A DNA stretch of 64,000 nucleotides from an uncultured Desulfovibrio sp. (GTDB lineage Bacteria > Desulfobacterota > Desulfovibrionia > Desulfovibrionales > Desulfovibrionaceae), in assembly GCF_944324525.1 (NCBI RefSeq), contig NZ_CALUWS010000003.1:52479-116478 (forward strand). The letters run 5' to 3'. The position numbers and the translations under genes are program-made. Shown piece after piece: positions 3,426 through 32,380 of this stretch; position 1 is the stretch's first letter, and the number at the start of each line of letters is the position of its first letter. Under the pieces are notes generated by a model. The model was not told the DNA's origin, did no database searches, and saw only the letters and a program-made list of their open reading frames with translations.

Positions 3426-3756
3426 TTTTTGGGGGGAAGGGGAACCCCTCGCTCTGCTGTCGATGCCCGTAAGGCTCCTGCGTCGCCTAACGGCCTGTTA
3501 ACACTGTTTACTGCTTGTTTGGGGGGAAGGGGAACCCCTCCGCCGGCGCGGGAGGGGTTCCCCTTCCCCCCAAGCCCCCTATCCCTTCCCCAGCGCGCTT
3601 TTAGCAGAGAAAGACTCCAAGGACGAGACAGCCTCGCCCCGGAGGGTAAGCAGATCTTGTACGGTTTTTTCTTTATCTATCGGAATAATTTGTAAATTTT
3701 ATGTTAACAGGCCTAACGGGCACGGTCTGCGGGCCGCCTTTCGGTCGCTGCCACCT
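3426..3756. repeat. Family A repeat, copy A1 (composite, with perfect 22-bp inverted repeat)
   Basis: This stretch between the U32 gene and the AT-rich methyltransferase has no gene. It holds two copies of the left arm TTGGGGGGAAGGGGAACCCC (3429-3450 and 3519-3540), a partial 70-bp cassette between them (3451-3491), and the right arm at 3552-3573. The arms 3519-3540 and 3552-3573 are perfectly complementary over 22 bp with an 11-base loop. Downstream is the conserved tail (CCATCCCTTCCCCAGCGCGC, then a T-rich region to about 3705) and the 3' half of another cassette (3708-3755, GGGCCGCCTTTCGGTCGCTG). The same architecture recurs at 12164, 16960 and 46698, and inverted near 7272. Confidence 0.8.
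3519..3573. terminator. Strong GC-rich hairpin in repeat A1
   Basis: A perfect 22-bp stem with an 11-base loop lies about 100 bases after the U32 stop codon. There is no long T run right after the stem on either strand, so a classical intrinsic terminator is uncertain. Stabilising mRNA 3' ends or blocking polymerase in both directions would fit too. Confidence 0.4.
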
Positions 3757-12163: not shown

Positions 12164-12375
12164 GCACTCTTTGCTGCTTGTTTGAGGGGAAGGGGACCCC
12201 CTCGCCTCGCGCGGGAGGGGTTCCCCTTCCCCCCAAGCCCCCCATCCCTTCCCCAGCGCGCTTTTACCGTGGGAAGAGTCAGGGACACGGGGCAAGCTCG
12301 CCCCCATAAGGCACGCGGGGCATGCACGGCATATTCTGATTATCCGCTGAAATTATTCATACAGTTTATGTTAAA
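12164..12375 (+). repeat. Family A repeat, copy A3
   Basis: It begins at the stop of the RNA methyltransferase with the lead-in GCACTCTTTGCTGCTTGTTT. The inverted repeat follows (12182-12203 with 12215-12236, nearly perfect), then the conserved CCATCCCTTCCCCAGCGCGC and the T-rich tail ending near AATTATTCATACAGTTTATG. A degenerate cassette fragment follows (about 12404-12450). No gene is seen in 12164-12564. Confidence 0.8.
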
Positions 12376-16959: not shown

Positions 16960-17316
16960 GGCCTGTTAAGACTCTTTATTGCCTGTTTTTGGGGAAGGGG
17001 AACCCCTCGCTCTGCTGTCGATGCCTGTAAGGCCTTACGGCCTAACAGGCACGGCCCTACGGGCCGCCTTTCGGTCGCGCTCTGCTGTCGATGCCTGTAA
17101 GGCCTTGCGGCCTAACAGGCACGGCCCTGCGGGCCGCCTTTCGGTCGCCGCCGGCGCGGGAGGTGTTCCCCTTCCCCCCCTTCCCTCCCCAGCGCGCTTT
17201 TGCCGATAGAAGAGTTGGGTACACGAGCTGCCCCTCCTCCAAAGGCAAGCGAAGCGTATACGGCTTATTTTACTTATCTATTGAAATTATTTACAAAAAT
17301 TACATTAGTTCGCTTT
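16960..17316 (+). repeat. Family A repeat, copy A4
   Basis: It starts with the lead-in GGCCTGTTAAGACTC right at the nitroreductase stop codon. The left arm (about 16986-17008) and right arm (about 17160-17179, less perfect) are separated by two tandem 70-bp cassettes. The conserved AGCGCGCTTTTGCCG tail and T-rich end follow. Together with copy B3 it fills the 521-bp gap between two convergent genes; no gene is present. Confidence 0.8.
17009..17148 (+). repeat. Two tandem 70-bp cassettes
   Basis: 17009-17078 and 17079-17148 are identical except for two A/G differences. Each unit starts GCTCTGCTGTCGATGCCTGT and holds two small hairpins, GCCTGTAAGGCC with GGCCTAACAGGC, and CGGCCC with GGGCCG, ending GCCTTTCGGTCGC. 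Whole or partial units also occur at 3451-3491, 3711-3755 and 46748-46821. Confidence 0.9.
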
Positions 17317-17480: not shown

Positions 17481-18899
17481 TCAGGCCTGCGCGCTTGTCT
17501 GGGCTTGCGTCCGCTCGAAGGGCGGCGGCGGCCGCCAGCGCCAGAACAGCAAGAGCAGGGGGACAAGACCGGCAAGCTCGGCCACCTCCCGTCTGGCCAC
17601 CTGGGAAATGCCGTACCAGAGCGCGAGGCATGCGCCGATGGAAAGCAGCATGAGCCCCCACTGCCGCAAGCTCATGGGGCGGGCCACCCATTGAAAATAC
17701 CCCACCGTCAGAATGGCCACCCAGACCTTGGTAATGGTCAGGGTCAGCGCGGTTCCGTCTACCGCCAGAGCGGGGATGAGCGTCAGGCAGCAGATGATGT
17801 TGACGGCCAGACCGCTCAGGTAAAAGTACAGCAACAGCTTGTGCTTGCGCATGCCGATCATGGCATAGGCCGCCAGATTGTGCAGAAAGGCCGTGGCAAG
17901 ACAGGGCGTCAGCAGGCGCTGCGCCGTAACGGCGTCCGCATATTCCGGCCCGTAGACAAGGGGCAGGAAGCGGTCGCTCTCCACACAGATAAGAAAAATC
18001 ACCGGCAGGGACGCCGCCCAGAGCGAACGGGCGGTCTGACCGGCAAGATGACGGAAAGCCTCGCGGTTTTCCCGCCAGTAGCGGGCCAGCAGGGGGAAGA
18101 TGACCTTGCCGAGCAGGGCGCTGGATACCAGCACGGAAAGACCGTCCACGGTTTCCCAGGCAACGCTGTAGGAGGCGACTTTAGCCGTGGAGTACGAATC
18201 CACAAGAAAAAAGACGTTGATCTTGTTGTAGCACATGGTGCAGGCGGCCATGAGCGTGAAAATGACGCCGCCTTTCATCTTGCGGGCCAAATCCTTGAGT
18301 GCGGCCAGGGTCAGCCGCCGCAGGGGATTGTGCCCCAGCGCACAGACGGCCAGCCCGGCACAGCAGACGGATTCAATGGGCTTGTACAGCGCAATGGCCA
18401 GCATGGGGAGCTGAAAAACGACGCACACAATCCCGTAGCCTATGCCGATAAGAGCCGACGGGATGCGGATACGCATCTCCACATCCTGCCGTCCACGCGC
18501 CTGGCAGAGCGCAAAAAAGGAATCCGTGACGCCGTCCAGCCCGAAGCCCGCCGCAATGAGCAGCATCACAATCTGCTGTTCCGGCGGCCTGGGCAGCACC
18601 AGAACCCAGGTGACCGCAAGCGCAATGAACAGCGCACAGCACTTGAGCCAGGTGGCCTGTCCCAGCAGCTCACGGGGGCGGCCTTCCCGGCGGGCAAAGG
18701 ACGAGAGCAGAAAGTCATTGAGTCCCACATCAGCGGCGGTCTTGACCAGATAGCCGGCAGACAGCGCCGTGCTGAGCATGCCCATCATATCCTTGCTGTA
18801 CCGGGCAAGCAGGATGGTGAAGATGGTCCACGAGAGATCCCGCGTCCACTGCGCGCCAAGGATATACCCCAGTTGCCGGGTGAGTCGGGTAAGCTTCAT
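17481..18899 (-). CDS. Polysaccharide/lipid flippase (Wzx-like, MOP superfamily)
   Basis: A 472-aa protein with about 12 hydrophobic segments spread evenly. The early part (LARYSKDMMGMLSTALSAGYLVKTAADVGLNDFLL) and the layout fit polysaccharide biosynthesis flippases of the MOP superfamily, which move lipid-linked glycans or related lipids across the inner membrane. It is the last gene of a tight leftward set (PKS-like, OM channel, HlyD, flippase), 3 bases after hlyD. Substrate is inferred only from neighbours. Confidence 0.8.
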   Translation of the reverse strand: MKLTRLTRQLGYILGAQWTRDLSWTIFTILLARYSKDMMGMLSTALSAGYLVKTAADVGLNDFLLSSFARREGRPRELLGQATWLKCCALFIALAVTWVLVLPRPPEQQIVMLLIAAGFGLDGVTDSFFALCQARGRQDVEMRIRIPSALIGIGYGIVCVVFQLPMLAIALYKPIESVCCAGLAVCALGHNPLRRLTLAALKDLARKMKGGVIFTLMAACTMCYNKINVFFLVDSYSTAKVASYSVAWETVDGLSVLVSSALLGKVIFPLLARYWRENREAFRHLAGQTARSLWAASLPVIFLICVESDRFLPLVYGPEYADAVTAQRLLTPCLATAFLHNLAAYAMIGMRKHKLLLYFYLSGLAVNIICCLTLIPALAVDGTALTLTITKVWVAILTVGYFQWVARPMSLRQWGLMLLSIGACLALWYGISQVARREVAELAGLVPLLLLFWRWRPPPPFERTQAQTSAQA

Positions 18900-18902
18900 G
18901 CC

Positions 18903-19796
18903 CTACTTGTTGAACAGGACGATGGCCTTGAAGCCGGGCTTCAGCTCAAGCGTCGGATTGGGAACCGTAAGCTCCACGGTATAGTAGGAGGGATTGCCGA
19001 CGTTCATGTCCGTGGACGCCCAGGAGATCTCACTCACCGTGGCCATGAATTCCTTGTCCTTGAGAGAAGGGATCTGCACGGTGGCCACATCGTCCACGGC
19101 AATGCTGTTGACGTCCGCCTCATAGACGGGAACGCGGATGATCACCGGATTGAGCTGCCCCACGCTGACGGGCATGCTGCCCTGACTGAGCAGGGAACCG
19201 GGGCTCGTTTCCGCCGTCACGGCAAGGACGTATCCGTTGATGGGGGAGGTGAGGGTCAGCGTCTCCGGCAGATCGCCACGAGGATCGAGCTTCTGGCCGA
19301 AGTAGCCTTCCAGCTCTTTGAGCCGGGCGGCAAAGGTCTTTTCCCGCTTGTCGATGGCGATCTTGAGCAGTTCGATGCGGTTCTGGATGCTTTCGTAGCT
19401 GGCCTCCAGACGCGAGGAGGCTTGCCGCGACCCCAGCCCGGAAGCCACTAGCTGCCGCGCCTTGTTGCGCTGGGCCTCGATCTCGGTCTGCTGCTGGCGC
19501 AGGCTCAGGATCTGGCCGCGCTCCTCCTCGGTCGCCGCGCCGGTGATCAGCTCGCGCTGCAGCATACGGGCCGCTTCTTCCTGCAGATGGTAGCGCAGCA
19601 GGGGCGCTCCCTGCTCCACGGCATCGCCGGGTCGCACGAGCACCTCGTCCACAATGCCGTTGAAAGGCATGGGAGCGGCGCGGGTCACCGTGGTGACCAC
19701 CTTGCCGGTCAGGCGTATCTCAGCCGCCGGGACGGTCTGAACGAAGCACAATGCCATGATGACGGCCAGCAAGCCGGAACGCAGCGTATGATGCAT
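18903..19796 (-). CDS. HlyD family periplasmic adaptor
   Basis: A 297-aa exported protein: residues 1-26 are a signal peptide ending near VPAAE. A barrel-sandwich half (GIVDEVLVRPGDAVEQGAPL) is followed by a coiled-coil hairpin (about 75-165, rich in Glu/Gln/Arg) and the second barrel half (LTSPINGYVLAVTAETSPGS), then a beta-barrel. Such adaptors bridge an inner-membrane pump to a TolC-type channel. It is 3 bases after the TolC-like gene and 3 bases before the flippase. No ABC, RND or MFS pump gene is nearby, which is unusual. Confidence 0.88.
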   Translation of the reverse strand: MHHTLRSGLLAVIMALCFVQTVPAAEIRLTGKVVTTVTRAAPMPFNGIVDEVLVRPGDAVEQGAPLLRYHLQEEAARMLQRELITGAATEEERGQILSLRQQQTEIEAQRNKARQLVASGLGSRQASSRLEASYESIQNRIELLKIAIDKREKTFAARLKELEGYFGQKLDPRGDLPETLTLTSPINGYVLAVTAETSPGSLLSQGSMPVSVGQLNPVIIRVPVYEADVNSIAVDDVATVQIPSLKDKEFMATVSEISWASTDMNVGNPSYYTVELTVPNPTLELKPGFKAIVLFNK

Positions 19797-19799
19797 GGC

Positions 19800-21242
19800 T
19801 TATTCTCCACCGGGCAGCCCGAGGAAGTTTTCCTGCAGCAGGCTTGCCACGTACATCCATTCAAGGTTGGCGAGGCGGTATTCGAGCTCCGCCTCTATGA
19901 GCGCGATCTGCGACTGGATCAGGGCCTCCTGCCGGCTCGCCACTTCCGGGAGCTCGGTCAGGCCCTGCTCAAAGGAAACTTTGGCTTCCGTATACTGCAT
20001 CTTGGCGGTCTCCTGATTGAGACGGGCCAGACGCAGATTGGTCTCGGCCAGAGATACGCGCTGTTCGGCCTGCAGCCAGGTATTGGAATAGTCCGTCCGC
20101 TTGCGGGCCTGCTGGTTGTAGGCCTGCGCTTTCTGCATGCGGGCCGTCTGCACGCCGCGATAGCGCCGTCCCCAGTCGATGAGCGGGAAATCAAAGGTCA
20201 GGTGCAGGAAGGTATCGTCCGTACCGCCCGTGGGCTGAGCCTGACCGGCCGGCGGGACGTTGTTGATGTCGATGCGCATGTCCGGCACATAAGCGGCCCA
20301 GGCCACCATGATGTTGTAGTCCGCCAGCTTGATCTGGCTGCGCAGCAGGAGATCATCCTCACTTTTTGCCCAGCGGTCTTCCCACTTGAGCTTGCGGCCG
20401 TCAAAGCCCCTGAGGATGTGTTCGGCGGACTGGGTGTCCACATTGAGCTTCTGCTGCGGATCCACGCCGGCCAGGATCTTCAGCTCCGTCAGCTGGATCA
20501 CTTCCTGCATCTTGGCCTTTTCCAGCCGGAGTTCCAGCTCCCGCTCATGCTGGGTGGCCAGGTTGAGGGAAACGCCCTGACGTCCGTCCACGCTTTCAAG
20601 CTGTTTCCAGAAGGCGGTGAGTTCCTTGGCCACGGGCTGGAGCTTCTGCTGCTCGGCAAGGATGAGCCGCTGGGCATGCAGACGCATGTAGGCGCTGGCG
20701 ATCTTGTAGATGGCTTCGCCCACGGCCTTGCGGTGCGTGGAGATGGCCAGGTTGACCATGAGCTTCTGCACCTGATGCTCAAAGTAGGTGGCTACCGGAT
20801 TGGGGAAGGCCGCGGAAAATCCCACGCGCAGCTTGGTACGCGCGTAGTCGCCGGGGATGTCGGGCTCGTTCTTGTTAAAAGAAGTAAGGTTGTTGGTGAC
20901 GGCCAGAGACATGCGCGGCTCCGGCAGGTATTTCCAGACGGCATCCGTCAGCGCCAGCCGCTTGATCTCCAGATTGACCGCGCTGTTCACCAGCAGGGGA
21001 GACTGCTGGATGGTCAGGAACACGCAGTCCTCAAAGGTGAACTTCTTGGCCGGGTCGTACAGATTGGTCACCGCGGCATCAAGCTTGTCCTTTTTTTCCA
21101 CAGGAACGCCGGGCGTTTCCTCCAGCCAGTGCCGCGCGGGCAGCTCCGGCGCATCCATGCCGGCCTTGCTGGACGCGCAGGCTGTCAGCCCGGTCCCCAG
21201 GCACAGCAGGGCAACAGCCAACAGGCGACTTGCTTTCTTCAT
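19800..21242 (-). CDS. TolC family outer-membrane channel lipoprotein
   Basis: A 480-aa outer-membrane factor. The start at 21242 (GAGGGGAGCA before it) gives MKKASRLLAVALLCLG...LTAC, a lipoprotein signal with the modified Cys after LTA. Two long coiled-coil regions (about 140-290 and 345-460, for example QAEQRVSLAETNLRLARLNQ) fit the duplicated TolC tunnel. It forms an export conduit with the HlyD protein downstream. It lies 62 bases after the PKS-like gene. Confidence 0.85.
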   Translation of the reverse strand: MKKASRLLAVALLCLGTGLTACASSKAGMDAPELPARHWLEETPGVPVEKKDKLDAAVTNLYDPAKKFTFEDCVFLTIQQSPLLVNSAVNLEIKRLALTDAVWKYLPEPRMSLAVTNNLTSFNKNEPDIPGDYARTKLRVGFSAAFPNPVATYFEHQVQKLMVNLAISTHRKAVGEAIYKIASAYMRLHAQRLILAEQQKLQPVAKELTAFWKQLESVDGRQGVSLNLATQHERELELRLEKAKMQEVIQLTELKILAGVDPQQKLNVDTQSAEHILRGFDGRKLKWEDRWAKSEDDLLLRSQIKLADYNIMVAWAAYVPDMRIDINNVPPAGQAQPTGGTDDTFLHLTFDFPLIDWGRRYRGVQTARMQKAQAYNQQARKRTDYSNTWLQAEQRVSLAETNLRLARLNQETAKMQYTEAKVSFEQGLTELPEVASRQEALIQSQIALIEAELEYRLANLEWMYVASLLQENFLGLPGGE

Positions 21243-21304
21243 TGCTCCCCTCACTCCTTGCGCCGGAAAAGGCCTAACTCTCCGGCCACGCACGCCACGG
21301 CCAT

Positions 21305-24300
21305 CTAGGCCGGCAATATCCGTTCAAATTCCATCTGATTGAGCGTCAGCAGCGGCACGCCCACGTCATCGCATACCTGAGCGTCAAAACGCCGCAGCTG
21401 GCCGGTCCGCCAGCCGCAGCGCAGTTCCAGCACCGCCGGACCGCCGCCGGCCCCGGCAAAGCGGATGAAACCGATCCCGGTCAGCTTCCAGTTCGAGGCA
21501 TCGGCATCGAACAGCATCTCCTGCGCGAGCCACGCCCCCTGTTCCACGGCATCCACCAGCCGCAGGAGGCTTGTATATCCAGAAAAGCCTTCCGGGGCAA
21601 CGGCATCCTTGTGCAGGGCAAAGCGCAGCGTCGGCTGGGCCGCGTCGCCGTCCCCGCCGGCGGTGAAGCCTTCCCCGTCCGGCAGCATCCGCTCAAGCAG
21701 GCGGGAAGGCGCGCCCGTCGCGCGGCGCTCATAAAAACCGGCAAGTCCGCCATCCTGTTCCGTCCGCGTCCCGTCCGCCCCGGCAGTGTCGGCCCCGCTG
21801 CCGCTTTTCCAGAGCGCGGGCAGGGCGGCGGCCGCGCGCCCCAGCAGGGCCATGCCTTCCATGACGGGCAGCCAGCGGTCCGTATGCCGCCCGTTGGCGG
21901 TGAGGTCGCAGGCTTCCAGCCGGCAGTGGCACATGCGCGTCATGACGCCGTCCTGCCGCAGCCAGCTCCGGGCGCGGATATCGAGACGCGTCTCCCGCGT
22001 GATCCCCGGCGGCAGCGGCAGCGGTTCCCCAAGGCGCACGTCGCACAGGCCGTTGGGGCACAGCCACGGGAAGGCCATGCGCGCCCCGTCGAGCAAAGAC
22101 CGCAGGGCCTGGCTCGCGGGCAGGCAGGGCAGATCCGTTCCGGGCTTGCCGCCGCAGGTGGCCAGCCACGTTCGGGCATAGCGCGAAAACTCGCCGCTCA
22201 GCAGGAAATCCCGTCCTGATGCCGTCCGGGGCGGCTGCTGCCGGGCGAACAGGCCCGGAAAGACTTCGGGCCGCTCGCGCCAGGGCTGCAGCCGCAGCGC
22301 GGCCTCCTGCGCTCCCTGCGGCAAGAGGCTGCCGAGACACTCAGCCCGTGCCCACAGGACGACGGGCTCCCCGGCAAGCAGGACCTCCCGCGCGAACATG
22401 TCGCCCCATTCCTGCGCGAGAGGGGGCAGGCCGTCCTCGAGCATGCCCAGCATGGGCGGCTCCTCCGCCGCCTTCCGTACAGCGGCGGCGGTAAAGGTCT
22501 CCAGTTCTTCGGGCCGAAGGCTGCGGACACGCCGGATCCAGAAGTCCGCTCCCCCGTGCTCCCGCAGCACGCTCAGCGCCTGCGCTTCCGCCTCCGTATC
22601 GGTCAGATCCAGCAGCAGGCAGCCGGAAAGCGGCGTCTCCGTCTCCGACAGCAGGGCCAGCCCGGCCCGCAAAAATCCTTCCGGGGAGGCGCACGCGGCC
22701 TCTCCCGCCGGGGCGGGACAGCGCACCGCGCAGCCCAGCCGTTCCAGACGGCGGCAGGCCGTCTCGCAGGCAGGCGGGATGACCAGCGTCTGCCCCAGTG
22801 CGGCCAGGCCTTCCAGCAGCCGGGCGGCAGGCTCCCCGTCATCGCTCCAGACCAGCACCGCCCCGCCGGGTCGGACGCCCGGCCCCTGCGATACGGGATC
22901 CCAGGCCGCCGGATGCCAATGCCCTTCCCCGTCCACGGCATAGCGCAGGAAGGGACGCCTATCGAGGGCATCCGTGGGGCCGGTCTCCGCCGGAGCCTGT
23001 CCCTCAGCCGTTGCTACGGGAGCGGCCAGACCGACGGCGGCCAGCAGATCGCCCACCGTCAGCACGCCCATGAGCGCCTCAAAGGAGACGCTGCGGCCCA
23101 GCACCTCTTCCAGCTGCTGCACCAGCAGGGGAAAGCGACTGGAACGCAGGGAAAGGTCGTAGCGCAGATCCCACTGCGGCGTCACGCTGCCGGCGGGCAG
23201 GCCCGCCGTTTCCTCGAGCAGGGCGATGATGCGGCGCGCCAGCGGCCCCAGCGGCGGCATGGCGGCGGCCGCCTGCGGAGTGGGGGAGGCGTGCGCGGCG
23301 ACCGGAGCGGCCGAGCCTTCCCAGCGGGCCGCATGCGCTTTCAGCCCCGCGGCGGAGAGATGTCCCAGCGCGTGGAGCTGGGCGCACGTCCGGCGCAGCC
23401 CCTCGGCCTCGTTGCCCTTGCGGGATGCCGAAAGGCACAGGCTGCGCGCTTCGATATCCGTCACGAGGCCGCACAGGGTATCCTGCGGGCCCAGTTCCAC
23501 GAAATGCCGTATGCCGTCCCGCTCCCACATTTGCCGGACGCATTCCACCCAGCGCACGGCGTTCTCGTCAAGATCGGCGATATGCTCGCAGATCTCCCGC
23601 TGCCGCTGCGGATAAAAGCCGGTGGTGACGCAACTCAGCAGGGGGAGCTGCGGGGCCTGCATGGCCAGCGCGTTGAGCCGCCGCAGGGACATGTCGCGCA
23701 GAACGCGCATGCCCGGATGATGGAACGCCAGACTGACGTTGAGCATGATGGCCGGCAGGCGCTGCTTGCGAAAATGCTTGCGGGCTTCCATGAGCATGTC
23801 CCGCGGGCCGCTGACGATATACTGCCTGGGCGTATTGTAGTTGGAGACGTAGAGGGCGGGCCAGAGGCGGCGCGCCTCCTCGATGAGCTGCGCCTCGGCA
23901 TGCACGGCCATCATGCCCGTTTCCCGCGTGGCGCGGGCTTCCAGTTCCGCCATGTGCTGCGCGCGGGTGTCGAGGATGTACCAGGCCGTTTCCGGCTCGT
24001 AGACCCCGGCAAGGCAAAGGGCGATGAGCTCGCCGAGACTGTGCCCGCACATCAGGGACGGTCTGAGCCCCAGCGAGGCCAGATGGCTCCACTGGGCGTA
24101 TTCCAGCAGAAAGAGATAGGGCTGCTGCCAGCGGGTGAGGCCGATCTTTTCCTCGTCCCGCTCGTCCAGCAGGGAAAGGACGTCCCAGTCGGCCACGGCG
24201 GCCAGACGGTCCATGGCCGCCCGGGCGGCCGGGAACTGATCGTAGAGCTCGCGTCCCATGCCCGGCCAGACGCTGCCCTGGCCGCAGCACATGACCGCCA

Positions 24301-24928
24301 GCGGCGCGGCCTCGCCGCTGCCCAGCCAGACGCCCCGCTGGGCCAGTTCGCGCAGGGCCGCCTGCCGTACCTGCGTATCGGCGGCAAAGGGCGCGCGTCC
24401 CACGGCGAGCAGAGATTCCCGCCAGTCGGGACGGCAGGCCCCCAGCCGGCGGATGACGTCGCCCTCCTCAAGTTCCGCGGAGATGACGCCCTCCACCGTG
24501 AACGGCGTCAGGGCGGCCAGCGCGCGGGCCCGCCGGGTGTCCGTGCCTCTGCCCAGCAGCCAGATGGCCGGCTGCCCGTCCTGTTCAAGGTGGAAAAAGA
24601 CGCATCCGGCCAGGCTTTCGGACAGGGCTTCGGAGAGTTCGCCCAGCTGTTCCGTCACCTCACGGCTCCCGGCGCTGAGCTGCCGGGTCTGGGGCTGGGG
24701 CAGTCCGGCGGCCGTGCAGGCTGCCGTGAGCTCTTCCCGGAGGCGTTCGCTCTCCGCTGAAGGCACGGACACGCACCACCAGATGTCCCTGTGCGCGAGG
24801 CTTTCCCGAAAAGCGGCGGCCTCCTCGAGCAGGGCGGAAAGACAGGCCGGCACATCCCCTTGCGCGGACGAAAGGGTACGAGCCGCCACCAGAACAAGCG
24901 ACACAGGCAGAGCGACGATCTGTTTCAT
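21305..24928 (-). CDS. PKS-like multidomain protein with acyltransferase and carrier domains, no ketosynthase (PfaB/HglD-like)
   Basis: A 1207-aa protein. Residues 1-200 are a region without an active ketosynthase Cys motif. Residues 208-500 are an acyltransferase with CGQGS and GHSLGE (Ser297) and a VSLAFHH segment with the catalytic His. Residues 563-634 are a carrier-protein fold, but the usual DSL is RSS (DLSLRSSRF, Ser596). Residues about 650-880 look like a degenerate ketoreductase Rossmann region, and about 930-1207 like a double hot-dog dehydratase-type domain without a clear HxxxGxxxxP. The layout recalls PfaB/HglD proteins that work with a separate ketosynthase. It heads the leftward operon and is divergent from the oxoamine synthase. 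The product is probably a long acyl chain; its identity is unknown. Confidence 0.75.
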   Translation of the reverse strand: MKQIVALPVSLVLVAARTLSSAQGDVPACLSALLEEAAAFRESLAHRDIWWCVSVPSAESERLREELTAACTAAGLPQPQTRQLSAGSREVTEQLGELSEALSESLAGCVFFHLEQDGQPAIWLLGRGTDTRRARALAALTPFTVEGVISAELEEGDVIRRLGACRPDWRESLLAVGRAPFAADTQVRQAALRELAQRGVWLGSGEAAPLAVMCCGQGSVWPGMGRELYDQFPAARAAMDRLAAVADWDVLSLLDERDEEKIGLTRWQQPYLFLLEYAQWSHLASLGLRPSLMCGHSLGELIALCLAGVYEPETAWYILDTRAQHMAELEARATRETGMMAVHAEAQLIEEARRLWPALYVSNYNTPRQYIVSGPRDMLMEARKHFRKQRLPAIMLNVSLAFHHPGMRVLRDMSLRRLNALAMQAPQLPLLSCVTTGFYPQRQREICEHIADLDENAVRWVECVRQMWERDGIRHFVELGPQDTLCGLVTDIEARSLCLSASRKGNEAEGLRRTCAQLHALGHLSAAGLKAHAARWEGSAAPVAAHASPTPQAAAAMPPLGPLARRIIALLEETAGLPAGSVTPQWDLRYDLSLRSSRFPLLVQQLEEVLGRSVSFEALMGVLTVGDLLAAVGLAAPVATAEGQAPAETGPTDALDRRPFLRYAVDGEGHWHPAAWDPVSQGPGVRPGGAVLVWSDDGEPAARLLEGLAALGQTLVIPPACETACRRLERLGCAVRCPAPAGEAACASPEGFLRAGLALLSETETPLSGCLLLDLTDTEAEAQALSVLREHGGADFWIRRVRSLRPEELETFTAAAVRKAAEEPPMLGMLEDGLPPLAQEWGDMFAREVLLAGEPVVLWARAECLGSLLPQGAQEAALRLQPWRERPEVFPGLFARQQPPRTASGRDFLLSGEFSRYARTWLATCGGKPGTDLPCLPASQALRSLLDGARMAFPWLCPNGLCDVRLGEPLPLPPGITRETRLDIRARSWLRQDGVMTRMCHCRLEACDLTANGRHTDRWLPVMEGMALLGRAAAALPALWKSGSGADTAGADGTRTEQDGGLAGFYERRATGAPSRLLERMLPDGEGFTAGGDGDAAQPTLRFALHKDAVAPEGFSGYTSLLRLVDAVEQGAWLAQEMLFDADASNWKLTGIGFIRFAGAGGGPAVLELRCGWRTGQLRRFDAQVCDDVGVPLLTLNQMEFERILPA

Positions 24929-25156
24929 GCTGATTTACTGGGAAAAAGAGGATTCTTCCTTCAGTATGCCAAGAACGGGGTCCTTAGTCCAGAATGCTGC
25001 CGCGGGAAATTTTCCGGCCAGACGGGCATCCCGGCAATTCACTTGCCATGTGCCGTCACATAAGTTACGCTGAATTGATACAAATTTGCAGCAAGGGGCG
25101 GAAAAGCCGCTCGTACCTCACCGTCCCCACACCTATTTTTTTGAGGATATGACAGC
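24929..25156. promoter_or_regulatory. Divergent promoter region of the PKS-like and oxoamine synthase genes
   Basis: A 228-bp gap between two divergent genes must hold both promoters. A rightward candidate is TTGCCA (25043-25048), a 17-base spacer and TACGCT (25066-25071). No clear leftward promoter or operator was recognised. Confidence 0.35.
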
Positions 25157-26452
25157 ATGAAAGACCCGCAAACCTCCCAGGCCGCCGCATCTGAAAGCGC
25201 CGCATCCGGCTTCAACCGCATGCGCTCCAAACTTTCATTTGCCCGTCTTGTGGAAATGGGCGCCAAGATGGGGCTGGAAAACCCCCTCTTTCTCTGCCAT
25301 GACCGTGCCGCCAAAGCCACGGCCCAGATAGACGGCAAGGAATATCTCAACTTTTCCACCTACGACTATCTGGATCTCAATACGCACCCGGAGATCACCG
25401 AGGCCGTCACCGAGGCCGCCCGCCTGTTCGGCTCCTCCGCCGGGGCCAGCCGCCTCGTGGGCGGCGAGCGCCCCCCGCACCGACAGCTGGAACAGGCCGT
25501 TGCCCGGCTCTACGGTGTGGAGGACTGCATCGCCTATGTGAGCGGGCATGCCACCAACGTCTCCACCCTGGGCTTCATGTTCGGCCCCCGCGACGCCATC
25601 TTTTACGACGGGCTGGCCCACAATTCGCTCATGCAGGGGGCGCGCCTTTCCGGAGCGGAGCGCTATTCCTACACCCACAATGACTGCGATGCGCTGGAGA
25701 ACCTGCTCAAGGCCCACCGCGAGAAGCACAAGCGCGCCGTCATCGTGACCGAAGGCCTGTTCAGCATGGACGGGAACATCCCGGATCTGCCCCGCCTCAT
25801 CCGCCTGAAGAAACAGTATGACTGCATGCTGCTCGTGGATGAGGCCCACTCCTTCGGCGTGCTCGGCGCCACCGGTCGCGGCGCTCACGAATATTTCGGC
25901 ATCGACGCCAATGAAGTGGACATGTGGATGAGCACCCTCAGCAAGAGTATGTGCGGCTGCGGCGGCTTCATCGCGGGCAGCAGCGAGATAGTGGAATTTC
26001 TCCGCTACGGCTCGCCGGGCTTCGTGTTCAGCGTCGGCATGCCGCCCATCGTGGCCGCGGCCTGCAACAAGGCTCTGGAGCTCATGCTGCGCGAGCCTGA
26101 ACGCGTCCACAAGCTGCAGCGCATCAGCCAGTATTTTCTTGAATATGCCCAGAGCAAGGGGCTGGATACCGGCGCGGCCCAGGGATACGCCATCGTGCCC
26201 GTCATGGTGGGGGACTCCATGGCCGCCGGGGTCCTGGCCAACCTGCTCTTCAAGCGCGGGCTCTACGTCATGCCCATCACCTTCCCGGCCGTCAAGGAAG
26301 GCGAAGCGCGGCTGCGCTTCTTCCTTTCCGCCGCGCATTCCGAAGAACAGATACGGCAGGCGCTGGACGCCGTGACGGAAGAGCTGCCCAAGGCCCGGGA
26401 GATCATCGCCACCTACAAGCGGGAACATCTCGAGGATCCCGCGGACGACTAG
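25157..26452 (+). CDS. Alpha-oxoamine synthase family PLP enzyme (serine palmitoyltransferase/AONS-like)
   Basis: A 431-aa fold-type I PLP enzyme that condenses an amino acid with an acyl thioester, with loss of CO2, to give an amino ketone. Motifs are GSSAGASRLVGGERPPHRQL near the substrate-binding region, the DEAHSFGVLGATGRG stretch (PLP Asp), and STLSKSMCGCGGF with the Schiff-base Lys263. Related enzymes make biotin precursor, 5-aminolevulinate or sphingoid bases, or release PKS chains. The adjacent PKS-like protein and absence of bio genes favour the last two. A family B repeat begins inside its stop codon. Confidence 0.85.
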   Translation: MKDPQTSQAAASESAASGFNRMRSKLSFARLVEMGAKMGLENPLFLCHDRAAKATAQIDGKEYLNFSTYDYLDLNTHPEITEAVTEAARLFGSSAGASRLVGGERPPHRQLEQAVARLYGVEDCIAYVSGHATNVSTLGFMFGPRDAIFYDGLAHNSLMQGARLSGAERYSYTHNDCDALENLLKAHREKHKRAVIVTEGLFSMDGNIPDLPRLIRLKKQYDCMLLVDEAHSFGVLGATGRGAHEYFGIDANEVDMWMSTLSKSMCGCGGFIAGSSEIVEFLRYGSPGFVFSVGMPPIVAAACNKALELMLREPERVHKLQRISQYFLEYAQSKGLDTGAAQGYAIVPVMVGDSMAAGVLANLLFKRGLYVMPITFPAVKEGEARLRFFLSAAHSEEQIRQALDAVTEELPKAREIIATYKREHLEDPADD

Positions 26453-26596
26453 AGCGTTTTGCCATTGAAAAAGGCAAAGCGCGAGACGGCGGCACAGCGC
26501 CGCCCGGCCTAACGTAGGCGGAAAAACAAGAGGTTTTCCGCAAAACCACAGGCCGTATGGTTTGAAACGCGTTGCGTTCCGAACTGAAAAAGCTCT
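26451..26596 (-). repeat. Family B repeat, copy B4
   Basis: A 146-bp copy in the opposite orientation to B1. It starts AGAGCGTTTTGCC and ends GAAAAAGCTCT, and includes GCCGTATGGTTTGAAACGCG. Its first two bases are the last two bases of the TAG stop of the oxoamine synthase. It separates that gene from the first glycosyltransferase. Confidence 0.8.
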
Positions 26597-26666
26597 AGCT
26601 GTCGGGGCCGGGCGTCGCCGCTCCGGCCCTTCCTCTTTTTCCGGCCAATACCGCTCAGGAGTCGCC

Positions 26667-28007
26667 ATGTCCACGGATCCCGCCACGTCTTTTCCCGTTT
26701 CACCGGACCCCGACCTCGCGAAACGGTTGCCGCGGACGGCCTATGTGCTGCTCTGGTTCCCGCTGTCGTCCGAGACTTTCATCTTCCGCGAAGTGCAGCG
26801 CCTTGCCGCCCTGGGCATGCCGCTGCGCGTCTACACCATGTACGGCACGCGGCTCAAGGGCAGCAGCGAGGAGATGCGGCAATGTCCCCTGCCCATCCTG
26901 CGCCTGGGAGTGAAGGGCACAGCCCGCATCCTCGGCGCCTTCTTCCGGGCGCTGAGGTGCGATCCCGGCGCGGTCTGGCGGCTCATGCGCGAAGGGCTTT
27001 TCCGGCGCATGCGCAATCTGGAGGCGCTGGGGGAAAACGTCTGGTGCTTCCTGGCCGGCTTCCTGTTGGCGGAGCAGGCCCGGCGCGACAAGGTGGAGCT
27101 GCTGCACTCGGCCTGGGGCAACGGCTGCGCCACGGCCGTCTGGGTGGCTTCGCGCATATCGGGCATCCCCTTCGCCTTTACCGGGCGGGCGGGCGACATC
27201 TACCCGCAGGACGGCATCCTGCGCGAAAAATGCCGTGATGCTCTCTTCATCCGCACCAACAACATGGCCAATGTGCCGTGGCTGCAGAGCTTCTGCCCGC
27301 CGGACGAGCAGGACAAGGTGCATGCCGTGTACAACGGCCTGACCCTAGGGCAGCGTACGGAATGCGAGATGCCCTTCACGCCGCCCTTCCGACTTCTGGC
27401 GGTGGGCCGCTTCTGCCGCACCAAGGGCTTCCCCGAACTGCTGACCATGATGGCCCGCCTGCGCCGGGAAGGCGTCCCCGTGCAGCTCACGCTGGTCGGT
27501 GACGGCGGCTGGCGGCGCAAGCTCCATGCCCTGCGCCGCCGTCTGGCGCTGGAGGGCGTGGTGGACATGCCGGGCTTCGTGCCCAACGACCGCATACGGG
27601 AATACATGCGCAGTCATGACATGCTGGTGGTGCCCAGCGTGGTGCACACCAACGGCGACCGGGACGGCATCCCCAACGTCATCATGGAGGCGCTCTCCTG
27701 CCGCATGCCGGTGGTGGCCACCGACGTTTGCGGCATACGGGAAGTCATCGAGGACGGCGTGACCGGCCTGCTGGTTCCCCAGCGGGATCCCGCCGCTCTT
27801 GCCGACGCCGTGCGCCGCATGCTCTCCGACCGGGAGGCTGCGCGGCGCATGGCCGAAGCCGGACGCGAACGGGTGCTGGAGATGTTCGACAGCGCAAAAA
27901 ACATCCGGCAGCTGGCGGAGCTCTACGCCGAGCAGTATGCCGACTGGCGGGCCTCGCGTCCGGATGTCTGGCTCTTTACCCGCGGTCTGCCGCCGCAGGA
28001 CGACTAG
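26667..28007 (+). CDS. GT-B glycosyltransferase (GT4-like)
   Basis: A 446-aa glycosyltransferase with two Rossmann halves. The N-terminal part (AYVLLWFPLSSETFIFREVQ) matches WcaL/EPS-type enzymes, and the C-terminal nucleotide-sugar part has VGRFCRTKGFPELL and the E-x7-E motif in EALSCRMPVVATDV plus GIREVIEDGVTGLLV. It likely adds a sugar to a lipid or lipid-linked acceptor at the cytoplasmic face. CAGGAGTCGCC precedes the ATG. It is about 40% similar by eye to the next gene, suggesting a tandem duplication. Confidence 0.88.
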   Translation: MSTDPATSFPVSPDPDLAKRLPRTAYVLLWFPLSSETFIFREVQRLAALGMPLRVYTMYGTRLKGSSEEMRQCPLPILRLGVKGTARILGAFFRALRCDPGAVWRLMREGLFRRMRNLEALGENVWCFLAGFLLAEQARRDKVELLHSAWGNGCATAVWVASRISGIPFAFTGRAGDIYPQDGILREKCRDALFIRTNNMANVPWLQSFCPPDEQDKVHAVYNGLTLGQRTECEMPFTPPFRLLAVGRFCRTKGFPELLTMMARLRREGVPVQLTLVGDGGWRRKLHALRRRLALEGVVDMPGFVPNDRIREYMRSHDMLVVPSVVHTNGDRDGIPNVIMEALSCRMPVVATDVCGIREVIEDGVTGLLVPQRDPAALADAVRRMLSDREAARRMAEAGRERVLEMFDSAKNIRQLAELYAEQYADWRASRPDVWLFTRGLPPQDD

Positions 28008-28162
28008 AACGACATGGGCCGACCGCAGCTCTTGGCTGCCAGCATTGATAAGGAAGAGAGGGGTCTCTCCATCTCAGTCCGCCCGCTACCGACAGGCGCG
28101 GAGTGAAGCGTCCTTCCCGGCGAAACAAACTGCGTCGTCCCGCCCAGTGTCCAGGAGTTTGC

Positions 28163-29452
28163 ATGAACATGATCCCTGCTGCTGAAAATAGCCCTCTGCC
28201 TGCCGGTCTGCCGCATGTGGCGGTCGTCCTCCTCTGGTATCCGCTGTTCACTCAGCCCTTCATTTTCCGCGAGGTGGAGCAGCTGCGCCGTCATCTGCCG
28301 CTGACGGTCTACAGCCTGTATGGCCCCAGCCGGCAATACTGCTCCAGCGAGATGCTTGACTCCGTCGCACGGACCCGTACGCTCGGCATCCGCGCCCTGC
28401 CGCAGATTTTCCGGGAGCTGGCCGCCCAGCTCTGCACCCATCCGCGGCGCCTGTTCCGCCTGTTCCGGCAGGCGCTCTTCCGCCGCTGGCCGTCCTGGGA
28501 GGCACTGGGCGAAAACTGCTGGGCCTTTTTTGCCGGCCTTCTTCTGGCGCGACGCTTGCGGGAAGACGGTATGGACATGATCTACGCGCCGTGGCCGCGC
28601 GGCACGGCCACCGCCGCCCGTGTGGCGGCACAGCTTGCCGGCATCCCCTACGCCGTCGCCGTACGCGGCGGCGATCTGGCCCCGGCCGATCCCGATCTGG
28701 CGGACAAGCTGCGGGAGGCGCTCTTCGTCCGCGTCAACAACGCCGCCGACAAGGAACGCGCCGAAGCCTTTGCCGGCGGTGTGGCGCGGGACAAGACGGA
28801 ACTCGTCTACAACTGCCTGACCCTGCGCGGCGAGGCGACATGCCCGGCCCCGCTGCGGATGCCCGTACGACTGCTGGCCCTGGGCCTTTTTGACGTGACC
28901 AAGGGATTTGACGTGCTGCTCCGGGCCTGCGACATCCTGGCCCAGCGCGGCCGGCAGTTCACGCTGACGCTGGCCGGCGGCGGACACCGCTTCGGCCTCG
29001 GCCGGGAGGAAAAGCGCCTGCAGACCCTGCGCTCGCAGCTCGGTCTGGAAAACCGCGTCCAGTTCCCCGGTCTCGTCAGCCACAACGAACTGCCCCGGCT
29101 GCTCATGGCCCATGACATCTTCGTGGCGCCCTGCGTCATCCATCCTTCCGGCAGGCGGGACGGCATACCCAATACGGTCATCGAGGCCCTTTCCTGCGGC
29201 ATGCCGGTGGTCAGCAGCAACATCCATGCCCTGCCGGAAGTCGTCCGCAACGGCGAGACCGGCCTGACCGTCCCGCCCAATGACCCCGAAGCTCTTGCCG
29301 ACGCCATCCAGTGGTGCATGGAGCATCCCGACGAGGCCCGCCGGCTGGGCAGACAGGGGCAGGAACTGGCCAGAAAGATGTTCGATCCCGAGGCCAACAG
29401 CCGCAGGCTGGCGGAGATCTTCGCCGCGCACCATGCCGGGAGAAAGGCCTGA
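28163..29452 (+). CDS. GT-B glycosyltransferase (GT4-like), second copy
   Basis: A 429-aa paralogue of the preceding gene. The N-terminus VAVVLLWYPLFTQPFIFREV and C-terminal EALSCGMPVVSSNI and NGETGLTVPPND are parallel to the first copy. CCAGGAGTTTGC lies before the ATG. Its stop codon overlaps the asnB start (TGATG), so translation of the two is coupled. It should add a second sugar to the same product; sugar identity is unknown. Confidence 0.88.
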   Translation: MNMIPAAENSPLPAGLPHVAVVLLWYPLFTQPFIFREVEQLRRHLPLTVYSLYGPSRQYCSSEMLDSVARTRTLGIRALPQIFRELAAQLCTHPRRLFRLFRQALFRRWPSWEALGENCWAFFAGLLLARRLREDGMDMIYAPWPRGTATAARVAAQLAGIPYAVAVRGGDLAPADPDLADKLREALFVRVNNAADKERAEAFAGGVARDKTELVYNCLTLRGEATCPAPLRMPVRLLALGLFDVTKGFDVLLRACDILAQRGRQFTLTLAGGGHRFGLGREEKRLQTLRSQLGLENRVQFPGLVSHNELPRLLMAHDIFVAPCVIHPSGRRDGIPNTVIEALSCGMPVVSSNIHALPEVVRNGETGLTVPPNDPEALADAIQWCMEHPDEARRLGRQGQELARKMFDPEANSRRLAEIFAAHHAGRKA

Positions 29453-31365
29453 TGTGCGGCATTGCGGGCATATGCCTCTGCGGCGGTACGGGCCTTGCGG
29501 AAAACGCCGCCGCCCAGGTGGACGCCATGTGCCGCGCCATGCGGCATCGCGGGCCTGACGGTCAGGGCGTCTGGAGCGGCGACGGCGTGTGTCTGGGGCA
29601 TCGCCGCTTGTCCATCATCGACCTTGCCGGCGGCGCGCAGCCCATGCACAGCGCCGACGGCCGCTACCATGTGACCTTCAACGGCGAAATCTACAACTTC
29701 CCGGAACTGCGCAAGGAATTGGAAGCGCGGGGGCAGCGGTTCCGTACCACGTCGGATACGGAGATCATCCTTGCCGGCTGGCAGGTCTGGGGCCACGACT
29801 GCCTGCGTCACTTCGACGGCATGTTCGCCTTTGCTCTCTGGGATGCGCAGGAAAAGCGCCTCTTCTGCGCCCGGGACCGCTTCGGCAAGAAGCCCTTCTT
29901 CTATACGCTCCAGCAGGGCCGCTTTTTCTTCGCCTCCGAGCTGACCGCGCTCACCACGCTCCCGGAGCTGACCTTCACGCTCTCGCCCGAAGCCCTCATG
30001 CGCTATCTGGCCTACGAGTATGTGCCGACGCCGCAGACCATGTATGCGGAAGCGGCCTCCCTGCCGCCTTCACACTGGCTGGAGATCCACGAGGGCAGGC
30101 TGCGGCTGGAACGCTACTGGGAACTCCCCTTTCCTGACGAGCAGGATGCCCGCGGCGAGGAAGAGATCTGCGCGGCCTATCACGAACTGCTGGCCCGCGC
30201 CGTCCGCCGCCGCATGATCAGCGACGTCCCGCTGGGGGTCTTCCTTTCCGGCGGCATAGATTCGTCCATCGTGGCCGGGCTCATGGCCGGTCAGTCATCC
30301 ACGCCCATCAAGACCTTTTCCATCGGCTTTCAGGAAGCCAGCTACGACGAGAGCCGCTATGCCCGCATCGTGGCCCGGCGCTGGAACACCGATCACCATG
30401 AGCGCATCCTTTCCGCCGAGGAGTGCGCCGAACATCTGCCGCAGATCATCAGCCGCATGGACGTGCCCATGGCGGATGCCTCGGTGGCCCCCACCTGGCT
30501 GCTCTCCGGCGTGACCCGCGAAAAGGTCACCGTGGCCCTGGGCGGCGACGGGGCCGACGAGCTTTGGGCCGGCTACGAGCATTATATCGGCTACAAGGTC
30601 GCCACCTGGTACAACGCGCTGCCCGGCTGCCTGCGGCGGGGGATCCTCGAACCGCTTTGCCGCCTGCTGCCGTCCTCCTCCGGCTATATCAATCCGCGCC
30701 TTGCGGTGCAGACCTTCCTGCGCGGGGCACATGCGCCGGACTGGCTCCGCGTGCAGACCCTGCTGACGGCCCTCGACCCCGCGGCGCAGCGTGAGCTGCT
30801 GGCCCATCCCGATACGGCCTTCCTGACGGAGGAACGCCTCTTCGCCCCCACCCGGGAGCACTTCGAGCACTGGCCCGCCGGGCCCGCCCCGCTGGCCCGC
30901 GCCTTCCACGTCTACGCCCGGCAGTATCTGCTGGACGACATCCTGGTCAAGGTGGATCGCTGCTCCATGCTGCATTCCCTGGAAGTTCGGGCCCCCTTCC
31001 TGGACAGGGACGCCGCGGAATTCGTGGCGCGCCTGCCCATACGTCACAAGCTGCGCGGCTTCAAGCGCAAGTATCTGCTCAAACGGGCCTTTGCCGACGT
31101 GCTGCCGCCCGAGATCCTGCACCGCAACAAGCGGGGTTTCCAGATCCCCGTGGCCGCCTGGCTGCGCGGACGCATGCGGCCGCTGCTGGAGGAGATGCTC
31201 GGCGAATCCCGGCTGCGGCAGCAGGGCATCTTCGCGCCGCAGGCCGTACGCGCCCTCATGGAGGCGCACTTCAGCGGCCGGGCCGACATGCGCAAGCCGC
31301 TCTGGACGCTGCTCGTGCTGCAGCTCTGGCTGGAGGCGCAGCGCCGCCAGAACCGGGGGACATAG
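29452..31365 (+). CDS. asnB: Asparagine synthase-like glutamine amidotransferase
   Basis: A 637-aa enzyme with an N-terminal Ntn glutaminase domain (Cys2 after Met removal in MCGIAGICL; MRHRGPDGQGVW, LSIIDLAGGAQPM, FNGEIYNFPEL) and a C-terminal ATP-pyrophosphatase synthase domain with GVFLSGGIDSSIVAGLM. Both active sites look intact. It could make asparagine, but here the start codon overlaps the stop of a glycosyltransferase. Such enzymes are common in EPS and lipid clusters, where they amidate a carboxylated sugar or acyl product. The role in this locus is inferred from position. Confidence 0.88.
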   Translation: MCGIAGICLCGGTGLAENAAAQVDAMCRAMRHRGPDGQGVWSGDGVCLGHRRLSIIDLAGGAQPMHSADGRYHVTFNGEIYNFPELRKELEARGQRFRTTSDTEIILAGWQVWGHDCLRHFDGMFAFALWDAQEKRLFCARDRFGKKPFFYTLQQGRFFFASELTALTTLPELTFTLSPEALMRYLAYEYVPTPQTMYAEAASLPPSHWLEIHEGRLRLERYWELPFPDEQDARGEEEICAAYHELLARAVRRRMISDVPLGVFLSGGIDSSIVAGLMAGQSSTPIKTFSIGFQEASYDESRYARIVARRWNTDHHERILSAEECAEHLPQIISRMDVPMADASVAPTWLLSGVTREKVTVALGGDGADELWAGYEHYIGYKVATWYNALPGCLRRGILEPLCRLLPSSSGYINPRLAVQTFLRGAHAPDWLRVQTLLTALDPAAQRELLAHPDTAFLTEERLFAPTREHFEHWPAGPAPLARAFHVYARQYLLDDILVKVDRCSMLHSLEVRAPFLDRDAAEFVARLPIRHKLRGFKRKYLLKRAFADVLPPEILHRNKRGFQIPVAAWLRGRMRPLLEEMLGESRLRQQGIFAPQAVRALMEAHFSGRADMRKPLWTLLVLQLWLEAQRRQNRGT

Positions 31366-31504: not shown

Positions 31505-32380
31505 ATGACCAGTCAAATAAAAACGATCCTTCTGCTCGGCCTGCTTTCCGCCGTCATCATCGGCATGGGCGGCCTCGTGGGAGGACGCACCGGCCTTGTG
31601 ATCGCCTGCGGCCTGGCCCTTGTCATGAATATCGGGAGCTACTGGTTCTCCGATTCCATCGTCCTGCGCATGTACGGCGCACGAGAGCTGAGTCCCTCGG
31701 AAGCCCCCTGGCTGCATCAGATCGTGGAAGATCTGGCCCGGCGGGCCGGAGTCCCCAAGCCGCGCATCTGCAGCATCCCCGAAGAAGCCCCCAACGCCTT
31801 CGCCACCGGCCGCGATCCGGAACATGGCGTGGTTGCGGTGACCGACGGCATCCTGCGCATCCTTTCGCCGGAGGAGCTGCGGGGCGTCCTTGCCCATGAG
31901 ATGGCGCACATCGCCAACCGGGACATCCTCATACAAACCATTGCCGGGGTCATGGGTTCGGTCATCGTCATGCTGGCCAACATGCTGCAATTCACCGCCA
32001 TTTTCGGCGGCAACCGCAACAGCGACGGCGAGAACGGCGGCACGAGCCCTCTGGCGGCCATCGTGCTGGCCATCCTGGCGCCCATCGCCGCGAGCCTCAT
32101 TCAGATGGCCATCTCCCGCTCTCGGGAATACCTTGCCGATGAGACCGGCGCCCGGCTCTGCGGACAGCCGCTGGCGCTGGCCGGGGCCCTGCACAAGCTC
32201 AGCGGAGCCGCCGGGGCCCTGCCGCTGCACAGCGGCAACGCCTGCACCGAGCAGATGTTCATCGTCAAGCCGGTCTTTGGTTTCGGCGGCAGCATGAACA
32301 ATCTCTTCAGCACGCATCCGCCCATCGAGGAACGTATCCAGCGTCTTGTCGACATGAACCGCACGGGCCAGTACAGCTAA
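31505..32380 (+). CDS. htpX: Membrane zinc metalloprotease HtpX
   Basis: A 291-aa inner-membrane M48 protease that degrades misfolded membrane proteins. Two N-terminal helices (TILLLGLLSAVIIGMGGLVG and GLVIACGLALVMNIGSYWF), the zinc motif LAHEMAHIANRD, two more helices around 155-205, and the third zinc ligand in SREYLADETGA are all present. CAAGGAGTCTGC precedes the ATG. It is followed by a lipoprotein gene, probably in one transcript (26 bases apart). Confidence 0.95.
   Translation: MTSQIKTILLLGLLSAVIIGMGGLVGGRTGLVIACGLALVMNIGSYWFSDSIVLRMYGARELSPSEAPWLHQIVEDLARRAGVPKPRICSIPEEAPNAFATGRDPEHGVVAVTDGILRILSPEELRGVLAHEMAHIANRDILIQTIAGVMGSVIVMLANMLQFTAIFGGNRNSDGENGGTSPLAAIVLAILAPIAASLIQMAISRSREYLADETGARLCGQPLALAGALHKLSGAAGALPLHSGNACTEQMFIVKPVFGFGGSMNNLFSTHPPIEERIQRLVDMNRTGQYS

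Follow-up and report, generated by a model that had tools for sequence, protein, structure and literature searches.

The window analyzed in this study is a stretch of 64,000 nucleotides from an uncultured Desulfovibrio species (contig NZ_CALUWS010000003.1), whose genome is 2.9 Mb in size. An original prediction, made from the sequence alone, had described eight genes between positions 17481 and 31365 of the window as a divergent locus for an exported glycosylated amino-lipid. All eight open reading frames (ORFs) were confirmed; the coordinates match, the frames win the codon-usage gene call, and Pfam and NCBIfam agree with the named families. Four genes make up a leftward export operon, headed by a protein with an acyltransferase (AT) domain, and four make up a rightward glycan cassette, headed by an alpha-oxoamine synthase. 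The nearest four named loci belong to Desulfovibrio metagenome-assembled genomes (MAGs), with 75-79% identity in the AT protein. The features are as follows (PKS, polyketide synthase; KS, ketosynthase; ACP, acyl carrier protein; KR, ketoreductase; DH, dehydratase; GT, glycosyltransferase).

17481..18899, minus strand: flippase of the MOP superfamily (Wzx/PST type), last gene of the export operon (Pfam Polysacc_synt_3, PF13440, 1.9e-14)
18903..19796, minus strand: HlyD-type periplasmic adaptor of 297 residues (Pfam HlyD_D23, PF16576, 2e-16)
19800..21242 (listed ORF to 21293), minus strand: TolC-type outer-membrane channel with a lipoprotein-like signal (OEP, PF02321, 6.2e-24)
21305..24928, minus strand: AT protein P0001, a putative KS-less PKS remnant of 1207 residues, AT - ACP - pseudo-KR - DH-like (Acyl_transf_1, 1.6e-35)
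23459..24298, minus strand: AT domain of P0001, residues ~211-490, with GHSLGE, Arg322 and His403 (His296, Ser297, Arg322 and His403 invariant in 29/29 aligned rows)
23024..23236, minus strand: acyl carrier domain of P0001, residues ~565-635, motif DLRYDLSLRSSRF (Ser596 invariant in 29/29 rows)
22289..22927, minus strand: pseudo-KR region of P0001, absent from short family members (hhalign to PKS KR, 95.2%, 2.5e-8)
21308..22204, minus strand: divergent DH (double-hotdog) domain of P0001 (hhalign to PKS DH, 99.4%, 2.2e-21)
24929..25156, no strand: divergent intergenic region of 228 bp between the modules (from the sequence)
25157..26452, plus strand: RkpG-type alpha-oxoamine synthase, heading the glycan cassette (Aminotran_1_2, PF00155, 5.8e-51; tree position)
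26667..28007 (listed ORF from 26562), plus strand: GT4 glycosyltransferase 1, GT1 (Glycos_transf_1, PF00534, 3.6e-38)
28103..29452, plus strand: GT4 glycosyltransferase 2, GT2 (Glycos_transf_1, PF00534, 1.8e-33)
29452..31365, plus strand: AsnB-like glutamine-dependent amidotransferase (Asn_synthase, 4e-103; TIGR01536, 515 bits against a cut-off of 267)

The predicted gaps of 62, 3 and 3 bases in the export operon were largely recovered. Both 3-base gaps are right; the 62-base gap holds only with an inner ATG of the TolC-type gene (MKKASRLL..., ~21242), and would shrink to 11 bases if the listed ORF were read from its first start codon. In the cassette, GT1 most likely starts at 26667, with AGGAG just upstream, and for the Asn-synthase gene the most likely start is 29452 (MCGIAG...) rather than 29311, which gives a one-base overlap with the preceding stop codon. 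A consensus scan reported no sigma-70-like site in the 228-bp region between the modules.

P0001 has no KS domain in the Pfam and NCBIfam searches. Its AT domain was recognized by Pfam. Despite the lack of a Pfam carrier domain at E ≤ 0.001, the carrier region aligns with the ACP of relatives. The AT residues listed above and the carrier Ser596 are invariant in all rows of an alignment of the window protein with 28 of the 54 AT-protein gene calls longer than 700 residues (the 54 include two calls that belong to the long PKS at locus L091). Thus, the PKS-like AT/carrier protein of the original prediction was borne out. By the usual rule, the conserved Arg and an AFH motif in the AT point to malonyl. 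In the pseudo-KR region, SDDGE is aligned to the GGAKG nucleotide motif of PKS, and short rows are gapped there. The column of the DH catalytic His holds His in 16 rows, Cys in three (including the window protein), Leu in three, Arg in one, Ala in one, and a gap in five. The DH Asp is replaced by Glu. At E ≤ 1, a PS-DH match was obtained for 7 of 21 AT-protein members, the window protein not being among them, and the CurJ DH match has an E value of 0.042. The structure prediction of the C-terminal half was poor (pLDDT 41.1; fairly confident only at residues ~685-805), and Foldseek gave weak matches, mostly Rossmann folds and none at E ≤ 0.001; neither was given weight.

Where might such a protein come from? 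In the order sample (the order samples comprise 247 genomes each, drawn identically), the AT-protein matches outside Desulfovibrio and the g36 genomes sit in long frames of 2432-2621 residues in five genomes (E ≤ 1e-60), and with RkpA-like queries all five long PKS gave matches too, starting at the KS region. In the phylum sample, long-frame matches of 1597-2728 residues were found in 12 of 395 genomes (E ≤ 1e-50). By hhalign against the profiles of five long PKS, AT-ACP matched at 1.3e-88 and the alignment is collinear through KR and DH, while both swapped controls gave 0.1%. The long PKS of locus L170 reads NMO - KS - AT - two ACP - KR - DH by Pfam, with an N-terminal NMO/FabK-like reductase, and it has in common with the AT protein the carrier motif RSS and the Glu in place of the DH Asp. 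It is followed by a PPTase (phosphopantetheinyl transferase) gene, a GNAT-like gene, and an epimerase gene. Among the five long PKS from other Desulfobacterota (L167-L171), four have GT- and AsnB-like genes nearby (AsnB 38-59%, GT1 up to 48%), two have a deacetylase-like gene nearby, and L168 has a synthase at 34% with its best score on the serine palmitoyltransferase (SPT) model. In contrast to these PKS, the Desulfovibrio form has no N-terminal reductase, no KS and one ACP fewer, and its KR has no nucleotide motif. My reading of the alignments is that the AT protein is a ~2600-residue reductase-KS-AT-ACP-ACP-KR-DH PKS minus the KS, the N-terminal reductase, and one ACP, which were lost on the Desulfovibrio line. 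As a query against plasmid records, the AT protein matched 447, none reaching 80% cover in one place; the best 20 of the 447 cover residues ~146-515, which is the AT region.

The losses could also point to a relic in decay, with no role in lipid chemistry, that is retained merely as a part of the operon. The KS and the reductase are gone, as is the KR motif, the DH His is not conserved, and the called lengths range from 811 to 1650 residues. However, the invariance of the AT and ACP catalytic residues argues against decay, as does the presence of the protein in 59 of the 61 genomes of the genus set (G000-G060; E ≤ 1e-100), reduced genomes included. Thus, a mere relic is very unlikely.

The genome of the window has a single PF00109 (KS) match, a 442-residue frame of FabF size on a different contig. 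Exactly one match was found in nine genus genomes including that of the window (the match of G022 is weak, possibly by assembly loss), and the 52 others have more. Therefore, chain building in the nine must come from fatty-acid synthesis, and perhaps FabF works in trans for the AT-ACP protein. The genome of the window also has two PPTase-family genes, with frames of 159 and 319 residues; the latter may be of the Sfp type. The Pfa-type secondary lipid synthases, some of which occur in Deltaproteobacteria, are multidomain proteins (Shulse and Allen 2011, PMC3098273). In that survey, every cluster had at least one KS domain, unlike the AT protein.

The order AT protein - OEP - HlyD - flippase was found in 54/54 uncut loci and in the window, that is, in all 55 genomes with a long enough contig. 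The map covers 57 genomes besides that of the window, out of the 59 genus genomes with an AT protein; L028 (G012), on a 4-kb contig, was left unmapped. Contig ends cut L068, L069, L072, L028, and the second copy of G007 (L063), and L062 has a 2.2-kb insertion ahead of the flippase gene. These gene-order counts rest on tblastn, and the gene caller took the wrong strand in several loci (L029, L049, and L074-L077, for example). The TolC-type protein has a Cys ahead of a conserved KA motif in 48/48 orthologue gene calls and a strict lipobox pattern near its start in 33 of them. The MatE match of the flippase is weak (5.8e-4), under the model cut-off; MOP flippases are related to MATE. In several relatives, small genes that precede the AT gene were considered as ACP-size partners and rejected, since Pfam gave rpoZ-, dnaJ-, CBS-, SRP-, rpsP-, KH-, and rimM-type genes in L034; they are thus mere insertion sites.

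The original prediction had likened the locus to those of heterocyst glycolipids. The idea of glycolipid export and the pair of an adaptor and a TolC-like channel are indeed shared with DevBCA-HgdD, but the comparison broke down otherwise: the DevB model (TIGR02971) gives the HlyD adaptor 27 bits, far short of its cut-off of 129, the operon has no ABC transporter, and the PKS-like protein has no KS. A periplasmic adaptor and an outer-membrane factor are likewise both present in tripartite efflux and type 1 secretion systems; in contrast to these, the inner-membrane member of the operon is a MOP-type flippase. A review names ABC, RND, and MFS pumps in tripartite assemblies and states that PACE, MATE, or SMR assemblies had not been reported at the time of writing (PMC8277102). 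A flippase encoded in one conserved operon with a dedicated adaptor and a lipoprotein-like channel is unusual.

As for the cassette, a 60-row tree placed 26 cassette synthases in one clade (100/100) nested in an RkpG-type clade of 51 rows (100/99). The tree excluded tblastn alignments shorter than 330 residues and drew on 43 hand-picked loci (25 cassette and 18 PKS-adjacent). In 23 of the 25 non-cassette rows of the RkpG-type clade, the synthase adjoins a large type I PKS or is fused with one; the other two rows are an Acidisoma stretch that has capsule genes and no PKS and a Methylobacterium stretch without annotation. The KBL, BioF, HemA, SPT-like, and Thioclava rows lie outside the clade; the branches of the BioF, SPT-like, Acidisoma, and Thioclava rows are long, and their order outside the RkpG-type clade or near its base is uncertain. 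Could the synthase be an SPT, a cysteate acyltransferase, BioF, or KBL, and serve sphingolipid, sulfonolipid, or biotin/threonine metabolism? Its sequence neighbours in the PDB are KBL, SPT, BioF, and a cysteate acyltransferase. However, it scores below the curated cut-offs of the BioF (354 of 426), SPT (294 of 640), and KBL models, and KBL, BioF, HemA, and SPT-like rows fall outside its clade in the tree, which has no cysteate acyltransferase row. Such an assignment is highly improbable.

A further alternative is a role in capsule synthesis. Like RkpG and WcbT, the cassette would then supply the lipid to which a capsule-type polysaccharide is anchored, and the polymer would exit by a Kps-type route. 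The nesting of the synthase in the RkpG-type clade favors this, and the same-clade oxoamine synthase stands beside surface-glycan genes in the RkpA/RkpG/RkpH (rhizobial K antigen) and WcbR/WcbT/WcbS capsule-lipid systems. The rhizobial rkp-1 region makes a lipid carrier for the K antigen (PMC4881576), and wcbR is named in another source (PMC3908369). In contrast to both systems, Desulfovibrio has the AT-ACP protein, which lacks a KS, and the export operon of flippase, HlyD, and OEP, and neither an RkpA-like PKS nor an RkpH-like short-chain dehydrogenase/reductase (SDR) was matched in the 22 cassette loci searched (L127, L128, and L147-L166). Second-tier synthases of the order (49-62%), on the other hand, have an RkpA-like PKS alongside in 18/18 loci fetched and an RkpH-like SDR in 10 of them; these loci represent 15 of the 19 genomes that have this tier only and 3 of the 10 second copies within Desulfovibrio. 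A second-tier synthase was found in 14 genus genomes. In eight of these (G014, G024, G032, G034, G035, G040, G053, and G059), a KS gene and a KpsC/S-family gene lie on the same contig as this paralogue, probably as a true capsule-lipid locus, and all eight hold the cassette synthase as well. The capsule-type loci thus own a separate synthase copy, and the cassette is probably something else. In addition, KpsC/KpsS-family genes (PF05159) had no match in 42 of the 61 genus genomes, that of the window (G000) among them. Thus, a capsule anchor is an unlikely product of the cassette.

For the content of the cassette, 63 loci were compared, all of them matching the synthase at 64% or more and the four named MAG loci among them. 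AsnB is present in 58. Between the synthase and AsnB genes, 41 loci have GT1, a deacetylase-like gene, and GT2; 12 have no GT1, three have GT1 only, one has no deacetylase-like gene, and one has nothing. Four of the five loci without AsnB stop at a contig edge, the fifth being L160. The cassette is retained whether it lies beside the export operon or apart from it. The deacetylase-like gene (c0), which lies between GT1 and GT2 in the nearest relatives, is missing from the window (between 28007 and 28103); a 44% paralogue lies on another contig of the same genome with GT-like genes alongside. For the deacetylase-like protein, Pfam gave no match (two members searched), NCBIfam matched one of 19 members at 0.039, and the best PDB match had an E value of 0.74; the profile-profile comparison with three TIGR03006 members was moderate (94.4%, 8.5e-8). 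Its predicted structure was poor (pLDDT 39.5) and was given no weight. The AsnB-like protein scores 608.7 bits on the XrtA/PEP-CTERM amidotransferase model TIGR03108, under the cut-off of 816.9.

A dispersed repeat of ~150 bp resembling a miniature inverted-repeat transposable element lies at 26449-26599, starting from the synthase stop codon. It has the ends CTAGAGC/GCTCTAG and strong folding, and matches at least 45 further places in the genome, some of them partially. L029 has a similar copy between the same two genes, the synthase gene and the first GT gene.

Are the two modules parts of one system? In the genus set, the synthase (E ≤ 1e-185) is present in 59 of 61 genomes, as is the AT protein, and both are present in 58. 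G004 has neither module. Completeness is 63% for G004, 89% for G053, and 80% for G027. Small genomes hold both modules (G009 and G170, 1.4 Mb; G003 and G036, 1.6 Mb). The strict AT-protein and synthase sets are identical in the order samples: 49 genomes (47 of the genus and two of genus g36) have both, and 198 have neither. Among the latter, 19 have a second-tier synthase, five have a long PKS match, and G240 has both of these. The co-occurrence of the PKS-like protein with the oxoamine synthase, HlyD, and flippase genes is thus found throughout the genus, largely within one clade. The modules are divergently adjacent in 38 of the 58 genus genomes that have both, and adjacent in the two g36 genomes. 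In the 20 others they are not adjacent: they are ~17 kb apart on one contig in G005 and G015, 15 genomes have different called genes upstream of the AT gene, and G011, G033, and G041 stop at contig edges. Since the halves are apart in 20 of 58 genomes, they are two modules rather than one obligatory locus, yet they stay together in the same genomes.

I favor, at a probability of about one half, a reading in which a single surface amino-lipid glycan is built by the two modules and exported by them; the chemistry, the product, and the coupling of the modules are all inferred. The functional link is supported by the co-retention of the modules. The predicted export of such a product also stands in so far as a lipid-type oxoamine synthase, GTs, and an export operon are conserved in the genus and co-retained. 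Several observations weigh against this reading. Halves carried apart, which the original prediction had itself named as the adverse outcome, are what the 20 genomes show. Where the modules are apart, the AT gene heads the export operon and is absent from the fetched synthase-cassette stretch. In two incomplete assemblies one module is present alone, the synthase in G053 and the AT protein in G027. The co-occurrence comes mostly from one clade, that is, from few independent events, and its statistics are therefore weaker than the raw numbers suggest. No match for the flippase, HlyD, or OEP was found beside the five full-length PKS relatives. The DH His of the AT protein is kept in only part of the rows and is Cys in the window protein. 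L160 (G037) has a synthase, GT1, and a deacetylase-like gene, and neither GT2 nor AsnB was found in the 6.9 kb that come next (20 kb fetched); L156 has no GT or deacetylase gene between synthase and AsnB. Finally, no ABC, RND, or MFS pump was found in the operon, where the flippase is the only inner-membrane transporter (partners elsewhere in the genome were not sought); an unlinked pump might serve HlyD/TolC instead, and the flippase could merely deliver the lipid to the periplasm.

Alternatively, two separate systems may share the genus, the operon exporting a lipid or a polyketide-derived molecule and the cassette making a different surface glycolipid that uses another transporter. Each module is intact alone where they are apart, the AT gene stays with the exporter, two genomes have one module each, and no second coupling clade appears in the order samples. 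On the other hand, neither strict module occurs without the other in the 247-genome order samples. The divergent adjacency in the majority of genus genomes and in both g36 genomes, as well as the GT-, AsnB-, and deacetylase-like genes near the full-length relatives of the AT protein, also argues for a connection. I consider two separate systems possible but doubtful.

If the modules do make and export one glycolipid, the following steps can be proposed. The AT would load the ACP, as the intact catalytic residues suggest, and together with fatty-acid synthase would present an acyl thioester; elongation would fall to FabF in trans, because no other KS exists in the genome of the window. Oxoamine synthases release acyl chains as amino ketones, and the synthase of the cassette would condense the thioester with an amino acid to release a 2-amino-3-ketone lipid. 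Judging from the families, the GTs would attach a short glycan, which most species would then deacetylate, and amidation would fall to the AsnB-like enzyme. From the make-up of the operon, the MOP flippase would turn the lipid across the inner membrane, and the HlyD/TolC pair would carry it to the outer surface. In its boldest form the proposal is tentative and rather unlikely to be right as a whole: a half-PKS without its own KS borrows FabF, an RkpG-type synthase apart from a PKS releases a genus-wide envelope lipid, and a MOP-superfamily flippase replaces the ABC, RND, or MFS pump in a new tripartite machine. Every part belongs to a known family, and the combination of a PKS-less RkpG-type synthase, a KS-less AT-ACP-DH protein, and a flippase-HlyD-TolC operon was not found described in the open-licence literature, in whose titles and abstract openings nothing relevant on the locus in Desulfovibrio was found.

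Outside the eight genes, the cassette is followed by one more gene.

31505..32380, plus strand: HtpX-like M48 membrane protease (PF01435, 1.8e-40), a downstream neighbour in many, not all, loci

This protease is probably outside the pathway. Ten neighbouring genes that were scanned are of an ordinary core type, ProB-, ObgE-, AtpB-, Rex-, CobS-, UvrD-, GlmS-, and SurA-like genes among them, and there is thus no mark of a mobile island there. Rfam and tRNA searches of the window gave no match. A second family of dispersed repeats is present in the window at 3427-3617, 12209-12330, 17078-17227, and 46725-46946, and a stretch of contig C53 matches it at 79-86%.

Desulfovibrio species are common sulfate reducers of the gut, and their surface lipids contact the host. 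An amino-lipid glycan that is conserved and uncharacterized could be considered as a surface signal and as a marker of the genus. The KS-less AT-ACP protein makes the use of FabF in trans by a broken megasynthase a directly testable question, and the flippase-adaptor-channel operon may be an actual instance of a tripartite exporter that does without ABC, RND, and MFS pumps.

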